A DNA stretch of 64,000 bases. Source: Acetatifactor sp. (GTDB taxonomy: Bacteria > Bacillota > Clostridia > Lachnospirales > Lachnospiraceae). Of the stretch, positions 3,401 through 12,932 are shown one piece after another. Positions within the stretch are counted from its first letter, which is position 1; the number at the start of each line of letters is the position of its first letter. The DNA is taken from positions 1 to 64,000 of the forward strand of contig JAFLRM010000009.1 in NCBI GenBank assembly GCA_022511465.1. Reading direction: 5' to 3'. The position numbers and the translations under genes were made by a program. The notes beneath the pieces are model-generated. The model ran no database searches and was not told where the DNA came from. It saw only the letters and a list, made by a program, of their open reading frames with translations.

Positions 3401-4900
3401 CTATACTCCTAAAAAGCCTTTCACCGCATCTTTCATCTCATCCACCTCGCACTGGTGGTCATGTACCACAGGCGCGGTGCGGATCTCTTCGATAGCTCCC
3501 GGGATCTTCACATTGGCAAGCCCTGACAGTTCGTCCACCAATTCAAGATCGCTCATGGCATCATATTTTTTGTCAATGGCATTCATCACGCTTCTGGTGA
3601 ACTTGAAGGGACTCGCTGTGGAGGCGATCACTGTCTTGGTGGTGTCCCCGGTCTCCGCTATGTATTTCCGATAAACCGCAGATGCCACAGAAGTATGAGT
3701 GTCAAGCACATAACCGCACGCACGGTACAGTCTGGCAATCTCCTCAGCCGTCTCTTCCTCACTTGCAAAGTTTCCGTAGAAATCCTTAAGTTCTTCTCTC
3801 ATGCCGGCACTGATCTCATACCTTCCCTGACCGCCAAGCGACGCCATCAACTCCTTATTCTTGTCAGCATTATCCCCGGCAATATGATAGATCAGACGTT
3901 CCAGATTGCTGGAGATCAAAATATCCATGGAGGGAGAAGAAGTCAGTACAAACTCCCTGTTCCTGTCGTAGGTGCCGGTGCGGAAGAAGTCATACAGCAC
4001 CTTGTTCTCGTTGGAGGCGCAGATCAGCTTGTGGATAGGAAGTCCCATGTTCTTGGCATAAAATGCTGCTAGAATATTGCCGAAGTTTCCAGTGGGCACT
4101 ACCACATTGATCTTCTCACCTTCTGTAATCTTGCCCTCTTTCAAAAGCTGTGCATAGGCGTACACATAATAGCAAACCTGAGGTACCAGGCGTCCGATAT
4201 TGATGGAGTTGGCGGAGGAAAACTGAAATCCCTTTGCATCCAGCTCCTCTGCAAATTCCTTATCAGAGAATATCTTTTTTACACCGGTCTGGGCATCGTC
4301 AAAATTGCCGTGGATCCCCACTACAAAAGTGTTGTCGCCCTTCTGAGTCACCATCTGCTTCTCCTGAATGGGGCTGACGCCGTTCTTGGGATAAAATACA
4401 ATGATCCTTGTCCCCTCTACCCCTGCAAAACCGGCCAAAGCCGCCTTTCCGGTGTCCCCGGAAGTTGCCGTAAGGATCACTATCTCATTTTTTATCTGAT
4501 TCTTGCGCGCAGAAGTTATCAAAAGGTGTGGCAGGATGGACAGGGCCATATCCTTGAACGCAATGGTAGAACCGTGGAACAACTCCAGATAGTACGCGCC
4601 CTGAGCCTCCACAAGCGGAGCAATGACCTCTGTGTCAAACTTGCTGTCATACGCCTTATCGATACAACTTTTCAGTTCCTCCTCCGTAAGATCCGTAAGG
4701 AACAGCTTCATCACCTCATAGGCAACCTGCTTGTAATTCATGGCAGACAGTTCTGCCGGACTCTTGGTAAGCGCCGGAATATGATCCGGCACAAAGAGAC
4801 CGCCATCGTCCGACAAACCTTTTAATATAGCCTGGGACGCCGTCACCGGCTTCCCCTTACTTCTCGTACTGTTATATAATACTTCCGTAATATTCTCCAT
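3401..4900 (-). CDS. thrC: Threonine synthase
   Basis: YNSTRSKGKPVTASQAILKGLSDDGGLFVP, ...FHGSTIAFKDMAL (PLP Lys), ATSGDTGKAALAGF. Start placed at MENITEVLYNSTRS. Confidence 0.96.
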   Translation of the reverse strand: MENITEVLYNSTRSKGKPVTASQAILKGLSDDGGLFVPDHIPALTKSPAELSAMNYKQVAYEVMKLFLTDLTEEELKSCIDKAYDSKFDTEVIAPLVEAQGAYYLELFHGSTIAFKDMALSILPHLLITSARKNQIKNEIVILTATSGDTGKAALAGFAGVEGTRIIVFYPKNGVSPIQEKQMVTQKGDNTFVVGIHGNFDDAQTGVKKIFSDKEFAEELDAKGFQFSSANSINIGRLVPQVCYYVYAYAQLLKEGKITEGEKINVVVPTGNFGNILAAFYAKNMGLPIHKLICASNENKVLYDFFRTGTYDRNREFVLTSSPSMDILISSNLERLIYHIAGDNADKNKELMASLGGQGRYEISAGMREELKDFYGNFASEEETAEEIARLYRACGYVLDTHTSVASAVYRKYIAETGDTTKTVIASTASPFKFTRSVMNAIDKKYDAMSDLELVDELSGLANVKIPGAIEEIRTAPVVHDHQCEVDEMKDAVKGFLGV

Positions 4901-4996
4901 TAGTGTCCTCCATTCCCGCCACACATAGGATCTTGTGTATCATAAATAAAAATCGTCGGTTCATTATACTATACAATCATGAAAAATACAATCTTT

Positions 4997-5647
4997 TTAG
5001 CGTGCTGACGTATAAAATTCATGGTTACCGTGCTGGAACAGATAGGTGAGATGTGTGTCAAACCACGACATTTTCGAGCCATTCGCATACCGCCTGGATG
5101 CAAAGTACAATGCACCCTCGGAAATATCTTCTCCCTCCAGTGCCCGCTGCACCGCCGCGACAGTCTCCTCGCTCACTGTCACTCGGTAAAACCGCCCGCT
5201 TCCCACCGGAGAAAACTGGTACGACCCATTTTTCTCCTGAAAGATCACCTCCCCCACCGTGTCCGGAAAGTGCTTGTCCTTCACTCTGTTGAGCACCACA
5301 TTCGCTACCAGAAGCTTACCGTCCTCGTCCTCGCTTCCGGCTTCCGCCTCCACAATACGGCAGAGAGCATCCATTTCCTCGTCCGTGAGCTCATACAGAG
5401 GCTCTTTCTCCAACACCTGATATCCCACTACACGCTGATCAGAGGCCGCTATAGCCGTGATCCCCAGCGCGCTGCGGGTCTTGTCCGCCTTCAGGGTCTC
5501 GTCCAACTTTAACTCGCTTGCCGGTGTCCGCATAGCTACCGCCATACGTGCAGTTCTAATCTCCGTCACACTGACAAAGCCACATAAAAACAATAGATTC
5601 ATGAGTACCAAGCACGCAAGCGCTCTCTTATACATTACTATTTTCAT
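4997..5647 (-). CDS. Cell wall hydrolase (SleB/CwlJ-like Hydrolase_2 domain)
   Basis: N-terminal hydrophobic signal plus LCRIVEAEAGSEDEDGKLLVANVVLNRVKDKHFPDTVGEVIFQ...YQFSPVGSG, typical SleB-like catalytic domain. Confidence 0.88.
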   Translation of the reverse strand: MKIVMYKRALACLVLMNLLFLCGFVSVTEIRTARMAVAMRTPASELKLDETLKADKTRSALGITAIAASDQRVVGYQVLEKEPLYELTDEEMDALCRIVEAEAGSEDEDGKLLVANVVLNRVKDKHFPDTVGEVIFQEKNGSYQFSPVGSGRFYRVTVSEETVAAVQRALEGEDISEGALYFASRRYANGSKMSWFDTHLTYLFQHGNHEFYTSAR

Positions 5648-5731
5648 CCTTTTCTCCCAATGATTTTGTACCCATCAAAAGATAAGCCCGATATAGTAAT
5701 GTATGAGGCTGTCCTAAAAAATATTTCTAAA

Positions 5732-5760
5732 TTGAATAAATTTTTGAAAAATGTTATACT
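5732..5760 (+). promoter_or_regulatory. Predicted sigma-A promoter for the AP2-HNH ORF
   Basis: ttgaat - 17 nt - tatact, 28 nt upstream of the ATG at 5789. Confidence 0.55.
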
Positions 5761-5788
5761 AAAATGAAGTAAAAAAAGGAGAAAACTC

Positions 5789-6601
5789 ATGGACAGACCG
5801 GATCCAGGCAAGCAATATGCAGGCGTTTTTCCTGCCGTGAAGAAAAACGGGCAGGTCTATTTCCGTGCGTCCCTGACTTATCGCAGGAAGCACATCAGTC
5901 TCGGAAGCTTCCCTTCTCCCTTGGAGGCCCATCTGGCCTATTTGGAAGGGGGTCGTCTGCTCTCTGAAACGGAAATTTCTCTGCTCAGCTATCATTCTGA
6001 TTCCCCTCTCTCCTTTGAAAAGTGGGTGTGTCTCATCAATTTTCGAGATAATGGCATATATTTTGGCACCCCCATATACATGGGTCAGAAGCTCTTTTAT
6101 TATTATATCTCCCCCCGCCACATCCTGAAATTTGACCTGGATGATCTCTTCTACTATTCCTCCCACAAAATTATGCGGAGAGGAAATCATTACTTCGTTG
6201 CGGATTATGGAATGCAGGTAAATATCGCCTCCCGTCACGGCATCAAAAACTACGCGGTCTGTGGTGTAGATTACCGCTTTATCAATGGCGATAATACCGA
6301 CTTTCGCCGCGAAAATATAGAAATTCTGAACACCTACCACGGCGTCCGCAAGATCCAGAAAAAAGGGAAGACCCTATACACGGTCCGCATTCACGTGAAA
6401 GGTAACTACATCGTTGGCACCTACCTCACTGAACTGGAAGCTGCCATCGCATACAACAAAGCGATCGATCTACTCCGGGAAAAAGGCGTTCAAAAAAAAT
6501 ATACTCCCAACTATGTGGAGGGCATCTCTGCAAGCAAATATGCGGAAATCTATTCCTCCCTGGAAATCTCTCCAAAGATTCTAAACTTCCGCATATCTTG
6601 A
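5789..6601 (+). CDS. AP2-like/HNH-like/AP2-like DNA-binding domain protein, probable non-catalytic homing-endonuclease relative
   Basis: N-terminal YAGVFPAVKKNGQVYFRASLTYRRKHISLGSFPSPLEAHLAYLEG and C-terminal YHGVRKIQKKGKTLYTVRIHVKGNYIVGTYLTELEAAIAYNKAID both look like AP2 folds; central VDYRFINGDNTDFRRENIEIL resembles the HNH 'VDHINGDxLDNRxENL' motif without the His. Confidence 0.7.
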   Translation: MDRPDPGKQYAGVFPAVKKNGQVYFRASLTYRRKHISLGSFPSPLEAHLAYLEGGRLLSETEISLLSYHSDSPLSFEKWVCLINFRDNGIYFGTPIYMGQKLFYYYISPRHILKFDLDDLFYYSSHKIMRRGNHYFVADYGMQVNIASRHGIKNYAVCGVDYRFINGDNTDFRRENIEILNTYHGVRKIQKKGKTLYTVRIHVKGNYIVGTYLTELEAAIAYNKAIDLLREKGVQKKYTPNYVEGISASKYAEIYSSLEISPKILNFRIS

Positions 6602-6628: not shown

Positions 6629-7765
6629 CTATTTTTCCGAGTAGTCGATAAAGCTGATGTCCAGATTGGCATATCCCGCTATTCCGTCAATAATAGCGTC
6701 CTCTTTATACTGCCACATGGCGAAGCGGTAAGGGTAATCCGGAATATCCGACATCTGCGACAGCCACACATCGTAAGCCGTCAATTTTGACATGTCAATC
6801 TCCTTGATCAACCATTCTTTGTCGCCATAAAGCATCCCCACATATCCGGCATCTTGAATCGTGTCCAAAAAAACTTTGGCTATAGCAGTCTTCTCTGCCT
6901 TGCTCAGCGATTCAATCCTTGCGGTGTCGTTGGCAACCAGCTCCATATCAAAGGCGATCGGGTAATCGATCTGATAATCCCCAATATTCTCCAACACCAT
7001 GTTGGCCTCCTCTATGGCCTCCTCCCGCGTGATCGCCTGCGAAGAGAAATACAATCCTATCCGAAGTCCCGCGTCGCTGGCCCGCTTGATATTGTCGTAA
7101 TAGTAATCGTCCAAAACAAGCTGGCCGGTTCCATAGCCTCTGGCACCCACGCGGATCATTACAAAATCAACTCCCGCCTTTCTCAGTTTCACAAAGTCTA
7201 CATAGTCCTGATACTTAGAAATATCAACACCCACAAAGGACACCTGCTTGCCATCCACATAGTATTTCATCAGGTCTGATTGACACACCAGTCTGGTGAA
7301 GTCATAATCATGTTTGGGCAGATAAGGGCTGATCAAAACCCATTCCTCCGTGCCGTCCGCATACTGTACCAGCGTGTGCTTTCCGTCTGTGGAAGGATCA
7401 TTGGGAGCGGAAGATTCCGTTGCCTTGTTGGGGACATTGTTTTGAGAATGGCTGCTTTCCGCTGCCGAGTCCTCCTCCGATGTATCTATGGGATACTTGT
7501 CCCAAAAATCCAGATCCTTTGGTGACAGCACACCTCTCTTTGGCAACTCCTCCACTTCTACATTTTCGCTTCCCAACAGAAACGTGTCGTCCGTCACCAC
7601 TGTCTGTTGCTGCTGCTCCATATTGGTGCGCGGTCTCTCCCCTCGATCGTTCATCAACAGAACCACCACCAGTATCGCACCCACAAACAGGGTCACCGCC
7701 ACAATGGCGGAGACAAGTGTGGGGGTGATACCCGGTCGTTCTCCGTAATCATCCGGTAAACGCAC
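6629..7765 (-). CDS. Membrane-anchored glycoside hydrolase family 25 (lysozyme-like) protein
   Basis: N-terminal TM (SAIVAVTLFVGAILVVVLLM), Ser/Asn-rich linker, then FVGVDISKYQDYVDFVKLRKAGVDFVMIRVGARGYGTG...RIGLYFSSQAITREEAIEEAN...YPIAFDMEL. Confidence 0.9.
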   Translation of the reverse strand: MRLPDDYGERPGITPTLVSAIVAVTLFVGAILVVVLLMNDRGERPRTNMEQQQQTVVTDDTFLLGSENVEVEELPKRGVLSPKDLDFWDKYPIDTSEEDSAAESSHSQNNVPNKATESSAPNDPSTDGKHTLVQYADGTEEWVLISPYLPKHDYDFTRLVCQSDLMKYYVDGKQVSFVGVDISKYQDYVDFVKLRKAGVDFVMIRVGARGYGTGQLVLDDYYYDNIKRASDAGLRIGLYFSSQAITREEAIEEANMVLENIGDYQIDYPIAFDMELVANDTARIESLSKAEKTAIAKVFLDTIQDAGYVGMLYGDKEWLIKEIDMSKLTAYDVWLSQMSDIPDYPYRFAMWQYKEDAIIDGIAGYANLDISFIDYSEK

Positions 7766-7777
7766 TTACATTCCTCC

Positions 7778-8575
7778 TTATATTCTAACAATTACTTTTT
7801 TAGGACATTTTTCGGCACAGGCTCCACAGCCGATGCATCTCTCGTGATCGATCACCGCATGGAAATCAGTGACTGTCACCGCCTTTTGAGGGCAGTTCCT
7901 GACGCAGACCCCACAACCGATACATCCTGCCTGACAAGCTTTCATTGTCACAGGACCCTTGTCCGTAGAGCTGCACGCCACCACCTGTGTTGCCCGATAG
8001 GGAATCAGGGCAATTAAATGTTTTGGACAGTTCTCCACACACTTTCCACATGCCCTGCACTTCTCTTTATCCACTTTTGCCACACCGTTTTCCACGGTGA
8101 TTGCATCAAAAGGACATACCTGAACGCAGGTCCCAAAACCAAGACACCCACTATTACAGGACTTGGGACCACCATTTGGCACGAAACTCATCATCCGGCA
8201 GTCTTTCACACCATAATACTCATAATCCGAACTGGCCTTATCACAATCTCCCTGACAGTGAACATAGGCCACTTTCCGCTCGGTGACACCTGCGTCAACA
8301 CCCATGATCAGAGCCACTTTGTTTCCCACCGGCTCACCGCCCACAGGACAAGCGTTCACCGCGGCTTCACCCTTTGCGATAGCCGCCGCAAGACCGGAAC
8401 ACCCGGCGTAACCACAGCCGCCGCAATTATTGCCCGGAAGAGCCGCAAGAACAGCCTCTTCCCTCTCATCCACTTCCACCTTGAAGCAGAGCCCTGCCAC
8501 ACCGAGGAAGATCCCTACAAAGATGCCAACAATCCCAATTACAGCTGCCGCTGTAACAATCCCCGTTATACTCAT
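7778..8575 (-). CDS. rnfB: Electron transport complex subunit RnfB
   Basis: N-terminal TM, CGGCGYAGCSGLAAAIAKGEA...CPVGG cluster, plus four CxxCxxC...CP ferredoxin-type motifs. Confidence 0.95.
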   Translation of the reverse strand: MSITGIVTAAAVIGIVGIFVGIFLGVAGLCFKVEVDEREEAVLAALPGNNCGGCGYAGCSGLAAAIAKGEAAVNACPVGGEPVGNKVALIMGVDAGVTERKVAYVHCQGDCDKASSDYEYYGVKDCRMMSFVPNGGPKSCNSGCLGFGTCVQVCPFDAITVENGVAKVDKEKCRACGKCVENCPKHLIALIPYRATQVVACSSTDKGPVTMKACQAGCIGCGVCVRNCPQKAVTVTDFHAVIDHERCIGCGACAEKCPKKVIVRI

Positions 8576-8589
8576 AGGCGACCTCCCTT

Positions 8590-9174
8590 CTATAATAAAC
8601 CGGAGAACCCGGTGAAGGCAATGGCCATCAGCCCTGCTGTGAGCAGTACCATCGGCATCCCCTTAAAGGATTCCGGTATATCGTTGTACTCCATCTTCTC
8701 ACGCAGACCGGCAAGGATCACGATAGCAATGGTAAATCCCACTGCAGTGGCGAACCCATTCACTACTCCGGTAAGTATCCCATACTCTGCCTGTACATTG
8801 TTGAGCGCAACGCCCAGCACCGCACAGTTGGTGGTGATCAGCGGCAGATACACACCCAGTGCCTCATAGAGCGAGGGGATGATCTTCTTCAAAAACATCT
8901 CCACAAACTGCACCAGCGCAGCGATCACAAGGATGAAAACAATAGTATCCAGATACTCCAGATCAAGCCTTTGAAGAATAAATTGGTGAATCGCCCCCGC
9001 CACTGCACTCGCCAGCGTGATGACAAAGATCACAGCGGTGCCCATGCCGGCAGCAGTCTTCACCTTTCTGGACACTCCGAGGAACGGGCACAGCCCAAGA
9101 AACTGACTCAGCACCACATTGCTGACCAGAGAGGAGCCGACAAGCAAAAGCAATAATTCTCTCACACTATCCAT
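8590..9174 (-). CDS. rnfA: Electron transport complex subunit RnfA
   Basis: Multi-TM; LLLLVGSSLVSNVVLSQFLGLCPFLGVSRKVKTA, ITTNCAVLGVAL, typical of RnfA. Confidence 0.95.
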   Translation of the reverse strand: MDSVRELLLLLVGSSLVSNVVLSQFLGLCPFLGVSRKVKTAAGMGTAVIFVITLASAVAGAIHQFILQRLDLEYLDTIVFILVIAALVQFVEMFLKKIIPSLYEALGVYLPLITTNCAVLGVALNNVQAEYGILTGVVNGFATAVGFTIAIVILAGLREKMEYNDIPESFKGMPMVLLTAGLMAIAFTGFSGLL

Positions 9175-9993
9175 CTAATTGCCCTCCTTATCCAGATCCA
9201 TGATCGTCATGTCCTCTTCTGTCCGTTCCGTTATCATAATGATCTCACTGTCCAATTCTTCGCTGCTTTGCACAACCCTTGGCTCCTCTTTCTTTTCGGA
9301 GCCGGTATCATAAAATCTCTTGCTGCATCCGGTGTCGGGACAGCTTAAGCAGTCCTCGCTGCATCCTGACTGCAGCTTGCTGTAATCCTTGCCTTTCTTC
9401 TTTCCTTTTATCTTCACATAATTTTGAAGGGCTGTCAAAATCGCCAGAACAAAGAATGCTCCGGGTGCCAGACCAAAAATGTTGATGGTGACATAGGATC
9501 CCGGCATAATATCATATCCAAAGATACTTCCCTGCGCCAAGATCTCCCGCACCGCACCAATACAGGTCAAAGCTACGGTAAATCCAAGCCCCATGCCAAG
9601 CCCGTCAAACAGAGACGGGATCGGCGGATTGCCGTACGCATAACTCTCCGCGCGCCCCAGAATAATGCAATTTACCACGATCAGAGGTATGTACACACCC
9701 AGCGCCTTGTTCAAGTCGGGCAGATACGCTTTCATGAGAAGCTGGATCACAGTCACAAAGGACGCGATGATCACAATAAACGCCGGTATACGGATGCGGT
9801 TCGGTATCATCTTCCGCAGGATGGATATGAGGAGGTTGCTCATGGTCAACACCGCCATAGTAGCCAGTCCCATTCCCAGTCCGTTGACCGCATAGGTGGT
9901 GACTGCCAGAGTGGGGCACATTCCCAGCATCAGCACAAAGGTGGGGTTCTCTTTCACAAGGCCGTTTATGAGCCTTTCTCCTGCCCTATTCAT
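9175..9993 (-). CDS. rnfE: Electron transport complex subunit RnfE with Cys-containing C-terminal extension
   Basis: NRAGERLINGLVKENPTFVLMLGMCPTLAVTTYAVNGLGMG, VNCIILGRAE; extra tail GCSEDCLSCPDTGCSKRFYD. Confidence 0.93.
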   Translation of the reverse strand: MNRAGERLINGLVKENPTFVLMLGMCPTLAVTTYAVNGLGMGLATMAVLTMSNLLISILRKMIPNRIRIPAFIVIIASFVTVIQLLMKAYLPDLNKALGVYIPLIVVNCIILGRAESYAYGNPPIPSLFDGLGMGLGFTVALTCIGAVREILAQGSIFGYDIMPGSYVTINIFGLAPGAFFVLAILTALQNYVKIKGKKKGKDYSKLQSGCSEDCLSCPDTGCSKRFYDTGSEKKEEPRVVQSSEELDSEIIMITERTEEDMTIMDLDKEGN

Positions 9994-10651
9994 CGGCGCC
10001 ACCTCCAATCTCCACGATCACCTCATTCCAGTTATCCGCCAGATATCGTGCCGTGCGGATACCGCCATTCACCGCATCCACAACGGCTGAGGTAGTGACG
10101 GTGGCACCGGTGATGGCATCCACCTCGTTGTCTGCCACTGAGCCGGTCTTTGTATAGACAAAACTCTCCACATTTCTGTCCGCAAACTGGGGCACCAGCA
10201 CCTCCGGTGCTTTCATGCCAAGGCCCGCCGTCTCCGTCAGCTCCAGAATGGACACGCCCTGTATTGTTCCGTCGGTGGACACGCCCACATACAGCACAAT
10301 ATCACCGCCGTAGCCATTCTTTGATGTGGCCTCCACCACGAAACCGTAGGTCAGAGCTGTGTGTGTCACCGTATATACATTACCGATCTCCACCCCTTCC
10401 GCCGCTAATTCTGCTTCTAGCAGCTCATCCGGCGTATATTCAACAGGCAAAAATGCAAAATCAGTCATCCCCGGCTCAGGACTGGGAAATGCCGCTGCAC
10501 ATGCCTCCTGAATCGCTTTCTCCTCCTGGAGACGGATGGGCTCCTTGGTCAGTTCGTACACAAATCCCAGTATTAGACCGGTGATGATCGTAATGGCCAA
10601 GAGAATGCCAGTCTCTTTCAACACTACTTTTAGATCGCCTTTATTTTTCAT
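9986..10651 (-). CDS. rnfG: Electron transport complex subunit RnfG (covalent FMN-binding)
   Basis: N-terminal TM and DAITGATVTTSAVVDAVNGG (flavinylation motif); position in operon. Confidence 0.94.
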   Translation of the reverse strand: MKNKGDLKVVLKETGILLAITIITGLILGFVYELTKEPIRLQEEKAIQEACAAAFPSPEPGMTDFAFLPVEYTPDELLEAELAAEGVEIGNVYTVTHTALTYGFVVEATSKNGYGGDIVLYVGVSTDGTIQGVSILELTETAGLGMKAPEVLVPQFADRNVESFVYTKTGSVADNEVDAITGATVTTSAVVDAVNGGIRTARYLADNWNEVIVEIGGGADE

Positions 10652-11585
10652 GCTTCTGCCCTCCATGTCTGCGGTACCCGAAGGGTGTCGGCCTGCTCAC
10701 TTTTTCGATCAGCGGGACTAACAGGTTGCCCAAAATAATGGCGTAGGATACGCCCTCTGCTCCCTTTCCCCAAAAACGGAAAATTCCGGTCATAAGGCCC
10801 AAAAAGATACCATAGAGATATTGGCCTTTCACGGTGATGGGTCTGGTCACATAGTCGGTGGCCATGAAGAAGGCTCCCAGCATCAGCCCGCCGCCCGCAA
10901 GTTGTGCGGACAGATAGGCCGGATCAAGTCCTCTTCCTCCAAAGAGTCCTGCGAAGAGAAGAAACGTCACAATATAACTCCCGGGCACGCGCAGATCAAT
11001 AATACCGAGCAAAAGCAGGAAACACGCCCCGATCAAAATTGCGATCATGGAGGTCTCGCCGATAGTCCCCGCCGTACGGCCCAGAATCATATCCATGACA
11101 TTTACGCTCTCTTCCGCCTTCAAGGCTGCAAGAGGTGTGGCCCCCGTGAAGGTATCATATGTAAAGTCGGTCATCTGCACCGGGAAGGAGATCAGCAGAA
11201 AACATCTGGCTGCCAATGCCGGGTTCATAAAGTTCTGCCCCAGTCCACCGAAAAGCTCCTTAACCACCAATATGGCGAATACACCGCCCAATACGGCCAT
11301 CCAAAAGGGAATGCTGACCGGCAGATTCAAGGCCAGCAATAGCCCCGTCACCACCGCGGACAGATCCGTAACGGTGGTTTTTTTCTTATATAGTCCAAAC
11401 AGCACCTCCGTGATCACAGTACTGGCTATAGTCACCAGGATCACCAGCGCAGCTCTTGCTCCAAAGTGATAGATGCCATATCCGGCAGTGGGCAAAAGAG
11501 CGACGATCACCGCCAGCATAATGCCGCTGGTATTCAGCTTCGAGCGAATATGTGGGTTCGATGATACTTTGAAATGTTCACTCAT
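10641..11585 (-). CDS. rnfD: Electron transport complex subunit RnfD
   Basis: SSNPHIRSKLNTSGIMLAVIVALLP, FTGATPLAALK flavinylation-type motif, MATDYVTRPITVKGQYLYGI. Confidence 0.95.
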   Translation of the reverse strand: MSEHFKVSSNPHIRSKLNTSGIMLAVIVALLPTAGYGIYHFGARAALVILVTIASTVITEVLFGLYKKKTTVTDLSAVVTGLLLALNLPVSIPFWMAVLGGVFAILVVKELFGGLGQNFMNPALAARCFLLISFPVQMTDFTYDTFTGATPLAALKAEESVNVMDMILGRTAGTIGETSMIAILIGACFLLLLGIIDLRVPGSYIVTFLLFAGLFGGRGLDPAYLSAQLAGGGLMLGAFFMATDYVTRPITVKGQYLYGIFLGLMTGIFRFWGKGAEGVSYAIILGNLLVPLIEKVSRPTPFGYRRHGGQKHEK

Positions 11586-11597
11586 TGCTCTGTCCCC

Positions 11598-12932
11598 CTA
11601 CTTCTTTTTCTTCTTGGCAAGCTGTATTTTTCGCATAGATTTGATCTCCTGTGTCAGCGGTCGCTTGGCCGGACAGATAAAGCTGCAGCAGCCGCACTCA
11701 CAGCACTCCATACCATGGTTTTCCAGAAAAGCTTCCTCATCAAAATGCTCCGCATAGTCCGCCAGCTTGCTGGGGATCACCCTCCCGGGACATACCTCCA
11801 CACATCGGCCGCAGTTGATACAAGGCCCCGGCTCCATCCCGGCCACCTCGTCCTCGGTAAATGCCAAAAGTGCCGTAGAAGTCTTGGTGGTGGGCACATC
11901 CAGACCGAACATGGCAAATCCCATCATAGGGCCCCCGCATATAAGCTTCTCCGGTTGCTCTTTAAAGCCTCCTGCCGCCTCTGCAAGCTCCCGATAACTG
12001 GTACCGATGCGCACACGGAAATTCTGGGGCTCACTCACCGCGTTTCCCGTCACCGTGACGATGCGTTCCATGAGTGGGCGTCCCTCTATCACTGCACGGT
12101 ACACGGCAACCACCGTGTCCACATTATTCACCACACAGCCCACATCTGCGGGAAGCATGGTGGAGTTGACCATCCGCCCGGTAGTGGCAAAGATCAGCTG
12201 CCTTTCTGCTCCCTGCGGATATTTGGTCTTCAAAGGCTTCACACTGATACGCTTCTCGTTCTTGGTCAGCCGTTTTAACAGTTCAATACAGTCCGGCTTG
12301 TTATCTTCCACCGCCAGTATCCCCTGCGCATGGTCAAAGAGCCGCAAGATACATTTCAGTCCCCCGATCAGTTTTTCCGGCTCCTCCAACATTCTGCGGT
12401 AGTCGGAGGTCAGATAGGGCTCACACTCCGCACAGTTTGCGATCACATAGTCAATATTCTCCGGCTCCTTGGGGGAGAGTTTCACATGAGTTGGGAAACC
12501 GGCACCGCCCATTCCAACAATTCCCGCCTCCCTGACCGCCGTCAAAATCTCCTCCTTGCTCATCTGCTCCAAAGGCTTTACAGGGGGATGGAACGCCTCC
12601 ATATATTTCCCATCGTTCTCTACGATCACACTCATGACCATATCCCCCGTCACCACTCTGCGGGGCTCTATGGCTTTCACCGTTCCAGACACGGAGGCAT
12701 AGACAGGTGCCGACACAAATCCTCCGCTCTCCGCAATCTTCTGACCCACAAGGACTCGGTCACCCTTCTCCACGATCGCGTTCGCAGGAGCCCCAATGTG
12801 CTGGGATAAAGGGTATACCAGCTCTCCAGCCGGCAAAAGATCCCGTATTGGCTTGTCCTTAGACAAATCTTTTCCATCATAAGGATGGATACCACCCACA
12901 AACGTAAACCTTGCCATACCCTTCCCTTCCAT
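11598..12932 (-). CDS. rnfC: Electron transport complex subunit RnfC
   Basis: FVGGIHPYDGKDLSKDKPI, GIVGMGGAGFPTHVKL, CINCGRCVEVCPGRVIP...CCECGCCSFICPAKRPL. Confidence 0.96.
   Translation of the reverse strand: MEGKGMARFTFVGGIHPYDGKDLSKDKPIRDLLPAGELVYPLSQHIGAPANAIVEKGDRVLVGQKIAESGGFVSAPVYASVSGTVKAIEPRRVVTGDMVMSVIVENDGKYMEAFHPPVKPLEQMSKEEILTAVREAGIVGMGGAGFPTHVKLSPKEPENIDYVIANCAECEPYLTSDYRRMLEEPEKLIGGLKCILRLFDHAQGILAVEDNKPDCIELLKRLTKNEKRISVKPLKTKYPQGAERQLIFATTGRMVNSTMLPADVGCVVNNVDTVVAVYRAVIEGRPLMERIVTVTGNAVSEPQNFRVRIGTSYRELAEAAGGFKEQPEKLICGGPMMGFAMFGLDVPTTKTSTALLAFTEDEVAGMEPGPCINCGRCVEVCPGRVIPSKLADYAEHFDEEAFLENHGMECCECGCCSFICPAKRPLTQEIKSMRKIQLAKKKKK

Follow-up and report, generated by a model that had tools for sequence, protein, structure and literature searches.

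The 270-aa protein P0001, encoded on the forward strand of the window (the whole 64,000-nucleotide stretch of DNA that was analyzed), is probably a nuclease-dead, domesticated homing endonuclease that binds DNA in a sequence-specific manner and most likely serves as a transcription regulator. Two AP2 domains flank a degenerate HNH domain in this protein, the lesions in its active site are shared by its homologs, and the gene is conserved across a whole order of Clostridia, where it occupies a fixed locus and is under purifying selection.

Architecture of the AP2-HNH-AP2 protein

The gene and its parts, with the evidence on which each is based, are as follows.

5732..5760, +, promoter of the AP2-HNH-AP2 gene, TTGAAT-17-TATACT with extended -10 TGtTATACT (sequence; conserved upstream of orthologs)
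5789..6601, +, P0001, a putatively domesticated AP2-HNH(dead)-AP2 protein of 270 aa (ORF; homologs; AlphaFold2 model)
5819..5968, +, AP2 domain 1 (AP2-1), residues 11-60 (bbba in model; column conservation in 101 homologs)
6164..6334, +, degenerate HNH domain, residues 126-182 (profile-profile alignment; I-HmuI match; columns of 101 sequences)
6335..6487, +, AP2 domain 2 (AP2-2), residues 183-233 (model; profile alignment; column conservation)

The initial annotation, made from the sequence alone, had described a plus-strand ORF at 5732-6601, and the ORF of 270 aa is real; however, position 5732 is that of the -35 box and the gene itself starts at 5789. The promoter that it reported (TTGAAT at 5732-5737, a spacer of 17 bp and TATACT at 5755-5760) is present, and an extended -10 element (TGnTATAxT-like) was found upstream of 69 of 102 orthologs as compared to about 12 in shuffled sequence. 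The gene is also flanked by minus-strand cell-wall genes as had been claimed, and because it is monocistronic and set between opposing genes, it offers no operon partner from which its function might be guessed.

Searched as a single sequence, the window protein gave no credible match in Pfam and none in NCBIfam or the PDB, and neither Pfam nor NCBIfam contains a dedicated family for it; in PHROG, it matched the HNH endonuclease family phrog_99 with an E value of 1.4e-9. In a family alignment of 62 homologs (A1), HNH_3 matches were obtained for 32 members, most of them weak (best E 0.0013), and Pfam AP2 matches, again mostly weak and not established as reaching the gathering scores, for 20 members (best E 7e-7), the window protein not being one of these. 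The AlphaFold2 model based upon this alignment has a pLDDT of 95.1 and a pTM of 0.83. In this model three strands followed by a long helix, which is the AP2 pattern (bbba), are seen both at residues 13-59 and at residues 186-231; residues 126-182 are HNH-like, and residues from about 61 to 125 form a separate mixed domain. The best Foldseek matches in the PDB were the AP2 domains of the plant proteins TEM1 and WRI1 (E 4e-3 to 2e-2, probability 0.8-1.0), that of TEM1 having an E value of 4e-3 and a probability of 1.00, while in BFVD the HNH/AP2 endonucleases of giant viruses and phages were matched with E values down to 2e-10. The AP2 domain of WRI1 was also matched by the sequence profile of the family (E 2.2e-5). 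Thus, two AP2-like segments and an HNH-derived segment between them, as initially proposed, are recovered here, with the AP2 fold predicted at high confidence rather than being absent.

The HNH active site and the selection acting on the protein

For comparison with the family, a set of intact HNH-AP2 enzymes was assembled, consisting of seven phage proteins and the prophage protein P0002 (L224) from another family of the same order (HNH_3 E 2.7e-6, AP2 E 5.3e-6), for which a single-sequence fold was too poor to be used (pLDDT 39). In the alignment of the profile of these enzymes with I-HmuI (1U3E), residues D74, H75, N87, and N96 correspond to the motif VDHINGD..DNRRxNLR....N; the catalytic residues of I-HmuI are D74, H75, and N96 (PMC12724721). 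The profile-profile alignment of the family with the intact enzymes, which has a probability of 96.7% and an E value of 4.2e-10, covers 118 residues and displays two lesions. In the first of these, the VDH of the intact enzymes is replaced by VDY plus two residues, which agrees with the loss of the catalytic His and the two-residue insertion that had been noticed earlier. The second lesion, which is larger and goes beyond that reading, is a deletion of 16 residues shortly after the N87 equivalent and before the second AP2 domain; it removes the stretch to which the third catalytic residue (N96) belongs, and the HNH core runs directly into AP2-2. The span from D161 to G185 is 25 residues in 101/101 homologs, as compared to 39 for the equivalent D144-G182 in P0002, and the model has no helix between residues 180 and 186. 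At position 162, the equivalent of H75, Tyr is present in 76 and Phe in 23 of the 101 homologs (Cys and His occur once each, and the window protein has Y162), hence what the alignment revealed was a conserved loss of the His and not homologs with an intact HNH motif. In addition, the first HNH His is an invariant Gln143. From these columns, the loss of catalytic residues is an old one that the homologs have in common, and not private to this genome.

Residues D161, R173, and N176 are invariant in the 101 homologs, D161 and N176 being the equivalents of D74 and N87 of I-HmuI, and H126 is also conserved. As D161 and N176 are metal-site or structural residues, their retention makes a residual binding of metal or phosphate possible. 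These invariant residues together with H126 could also be taken as signs that the protein remains active as a nuclease, perhaps as a nickase, with an active site rearranged around D161, N176, H126, or H134. However, this appears quite improbable in view of the Tyr or Phe at the H75 equivalent in 99/101 homologs, the invariant Gln in place of the first His, the deletion of the N96 segment in 101/101, the presence of Tyr at H134 in 20/101, and a fixed single-copy locus that is unlike those of homing genes.

For six close pairs of sequences, an overall dN/dS of about 0.10 was obtained; the value is 0.04-0.06 for the HNH-like part and about 0.14 for AP2-1. Column entropy among the 101 homologs is likewise lowest in the HNH-like part, and these two observations together indicate that the dead domain is needed, its role probably being that of a scaffold or a DNA grip. 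The loss of catalytic residues would likewise be seen if the gene were what is left of a mobile endonuclease undergoing decay, but the purifying dN/dS, reading frames that are intact in essentially every carrier genome, the order-wide spread and the presence of invariant residues throughout the domain leave this explanation scarcely credible, and it was rejected based upon the dN/dS and the conservation. Thus, of the two outcomes that the initial annotation had entertained, domestication is supported by the conservation, the fixed locus and the AP2 fold, whereas neutral decay is contradicted by the selection observed.

In AP2-1, the alternating strand positions R26, S28, and T30, followed by H35 and S37, are 95-100% conserved among the 101 homologs, while those that separate them in strand 2 are occupied by various hydrophobic residues. 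In AP2/ERF-DNA complexes (AtERF1), it is these sheet residues that read the bases. The counterpart sheet positions of AP2-2 are variable in the same homologs except for H202. The frozen state of the presumed reading face of AP2-1 over the order predicts a single conserved DNA target, which would be the opposite of what is expected for a homing enzyme that tracks moving targets.

Distribution and chromosomal locus

The AP2-HNH-AP2 gene is present in one copy in its own genome and as an intact single copy in 75 of the 101 genomes of the genus that were examined (58-84% identity). It is similarly intact and single in 120 of 299 genomes of the bacterial family, sampled at about one per genus. Five other families of the same order were also found to have it, but no homolog was detected in about 275 genomes from other orders of the class. 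Judging from gene content, the bacterial family and the order are probably Lachnospiraceae and Lachnospirales. When mapped onto an rpoB tree constructed for 80 genomes, the pattern of presence is accounted for by 11 changes, with presence as the ancestral state, as compared to a minimum of 18 and a mean of 27 changes when the pattern was shuffled. The tree of the gene itself correlates with rpoB (Mantel r 0.35, with none of 2000 permutations as high), although only four splits are in common. Because the resolution of the gene tree is too poor to establish vertical descent (1/35 branches is strongly supported) and one strongly supported grouping conflicts with rpoB, some transfer of the gene within the bacterial family is possible. 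In 20 genomes that lack the gene, no remnant was found beside the threonine synthase gene; in three of them the hydrolase gene still adjoins it.

The neighbors of the gene in the window are the following.

3401..4924, -, conserved neighbor (cluster c2), a putative threonine synthase by similarity
4997..5647, -, cell-wall hydrolase (Hydrolase_2, SleB-like), conserved divergent neighbor (Hydrolase_2 E 3e-26)
5698..5726, -, back-to-back promoter of the divergent hydrolase, presumably sigma-E-like by resemblance to the sigma-E consensus, AAATATT-14-CATACATT (sequence)
6629..7765, -, GH25 muramidase, conserved convergent neighbor (GH25 E 2.5e-23)

Threonine synthase is close by in 19/21 loci with wide flanks, and one or more of the usual three neighbors (threonine synthase, hydrolase, GH25) could be seen in 55/58 loci for which about 1.5 kb of flanking sequence was available. 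In other families of the order, where the flanks were short, a divergent hydrolase gene likewise precedes the AP2-HNH-AP2 gene in 6/14 loci. The neighborhood, whose conservation the initial annotation had proposed to examine, is therefore constant across homologs and scattered positions were not found. Constant neighbors and a fixed locus are unlike the behavior of homing endonuclease genes, and the variable insertion sites and patchy presence that accompany mobility are not seen in this single-copy gene.

Homologs of the protein are also present in two records from human feces labeled as 'Bacteriophage sp.' (L079, MT836856.1; L080, MT837267.1). These metagenome records, and the fact that the parent architecture is common in phages, could point to a gene related to phages or to defence that travels with a mobile element. 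However, the chromosomal neighbors are constant, and L079 has threonine synthase upstream on the opposite strand, which makes it probably a mislabeled bacterial contig. As both records are unannotated fecal contigs of which at least one looks chromosomal, a mobile or phage origin of the extant gene was rejected; an anti-phage defence role was rejected since PADLOC gave no match for the protein. No real homolog of the protein was found on plasmids, and we consider this explanation exceedingly improbable.

In three loci (L042, L046, and L087), the gene seems to have been inverted in place without its neighbors, with threonine synthase downstream on the same strand; in L042 GH25 is located upstream of the apparently flipped gene. 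In the window, the GH25 gene is followed by genes on the minus strand (7778-12932) that read like an Rnf electron-transport complex, and an RnfB-like gene is a frequent neighbor in the genus.

Predicted role and relationship to known systems

These results suggest a course of events in which the ancestor of this Clostridia order, or an early lineage within the order, acquired an HNH-AP2 homing endonuclease and domesticated it. Its nuclease center would have been dismantled by replacement of the general-base His and deletion of the stretch that bears the third catalytic residue. Strong purifying selection would have preserved the AP2-HNH-AP2 scaffold, the gene being a stable part of the chromosome and having a vegetative-type promoter of its own. 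The present protein may bind a specific DNA sequence, mainly via the frozen sheet of AP2-1 and without cutting, with AP2-2 and the HNH remnant serving as an accessory grip or scaffold. Its most likely job would be transcription regulation, plausibly including that of the promoter region shared with the divergent cell-wall hydrolase. Between the sigma-E-like promoter of the hydrolase and the -35 box of the AP2-HNH-AP2 gene there are five bases, and since the two promoters are back to back, the region shared by them is the first candidate target. The sigma-E-like block is kept in those orthologs of the genus that retain the hydrolase and is missing in L026 and L029, which lack it. A link with sporulation, which the SleB-like neighbor and the sigma-E-like promoter had brought into consideration, was rejected because the presence of the gene showed no association with that of SpoIVA (76/44/120/59 genomes, Fisher p = 0.54). 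Hence, the main role must lie elsewhere or be a wider one, and the sporulation-type neighbor is not an obvious target.

The evidence from sequence is the same for a domesticated DNA binder that is not a promoter-specific regulator but is architectural, chromosome-organizing, associated with replication or repair, or a guard that occupies a site. The monocistronic gene agrees with such a role, and when the upstream regions of the orthologs were aligned and inspected by eye, no recognizable operator or other conserved site was seen in the gene's own promoter region besides the promoter elements. However, AP2 folds elsewhere are mostly found in transcription factors or homing endonucleases and a reading face as frozen as that of AP2-1 is suggestive of a single defined target, and we regard such a role as rather unlikely. 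Returning to the reading as a regulator, we incline to the broader view that this is an order-wide bacterial transcription regulator derived from a domesticated HNH-AP2 homing endonuclease, with the dead HNH domain kept, which would parallel the proposed origin of the plant AP2/ERF factors and be an HNH/AP2 counterpart of WhiA.

The closest known systems are the phage HNH-AP2 homing endonucleases (PHROG 99; HNH_3 PF13392 and AP2 PF00847), which resemble this family in the order of HNH followed by AP2, the D and N of the motif and the bbba AP2 fold. In contrast to them, the family lacks the catalytic His and the third-residue segment, has an extra N-terminal AP2 domain, and is present in single copy at a fixed chromosomal locus with a vertical-looking distribution. 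With respect to I-HmuI, the reference for the HNH active site, the equivalents of D74 and N87 are kept as D161 and N176, whereas those of H75 and N96 are missing and AP2 domains take the place of its NUMOD/HTH DNA-binding parts. Thus, by HNH homology and the D74/N87 equivalents the protein would be counted among the HNH homing endonucleases, but by its catalytic residues it would not. The plant AP2/ERF factors (WRI1, TEM1, ERF1) share the AP2 fold and the sheet-helix pattern, and WRI1 also has two AP2 domains, whereas the present family is bacterial, keeps a degenerate HNH between its AP2 domains and has a role that is a predicted one. An origin of AP2/ERF from HNH-AP2 endonucleases has been proposed (review PMC5318435). 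WhiA, a transcription regulator conserved in Gram-positive bacteria, is built on a LAGLIDADG-derived homing-endonuclease scaffold (PMC3781837, PMC11701221). Its likeness to the family is in concept only, a functional analogy, as its nuclease fold differs (LAGLIDADG plus HTH) and Pfam/NCBIfam scans of the family revealed no LAGLIDADG and HTH homology to it.

In the open-access literature we found nothing on this bacterial AP2-HNH-AP2 family, which represents a conserved, unnamed single-copy gene in many gut-type Clostridia. That AP2/ERF factors descend from homing endonucleases is an idea based upon similarity of sequence. In the present family, a change from nuclease to DNA binder appears to have occurred in bacteria, and intact parents (the prophage HNH-AP2 proteins) and tamed descendants may be compared within the same order.

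Several other AP2-containing proteins were also noted. A longer version of the family protein, of 373 aa and with a third, C-terminal AP2 domain, is encoded at 652-1773 of L104 (genome G679, family f79). A separate protein of 255 aa in L223 (genome G720) has two AP2 domains and the degenerate HNH motif VLHKNSDPLDFRRKNLEIL, and is possibly a related or intermediate form. Lastly, genome G297, which lacks this family, encodes four stand-alone proteins (L225, L231, L234, and L235) that possibly constitute another AP2 family. They have cysteine repeats of the CDCG type and end in an AP2 domain, and in L231, L234, and L235 large acidic surface-type proteins are encoded nearby.
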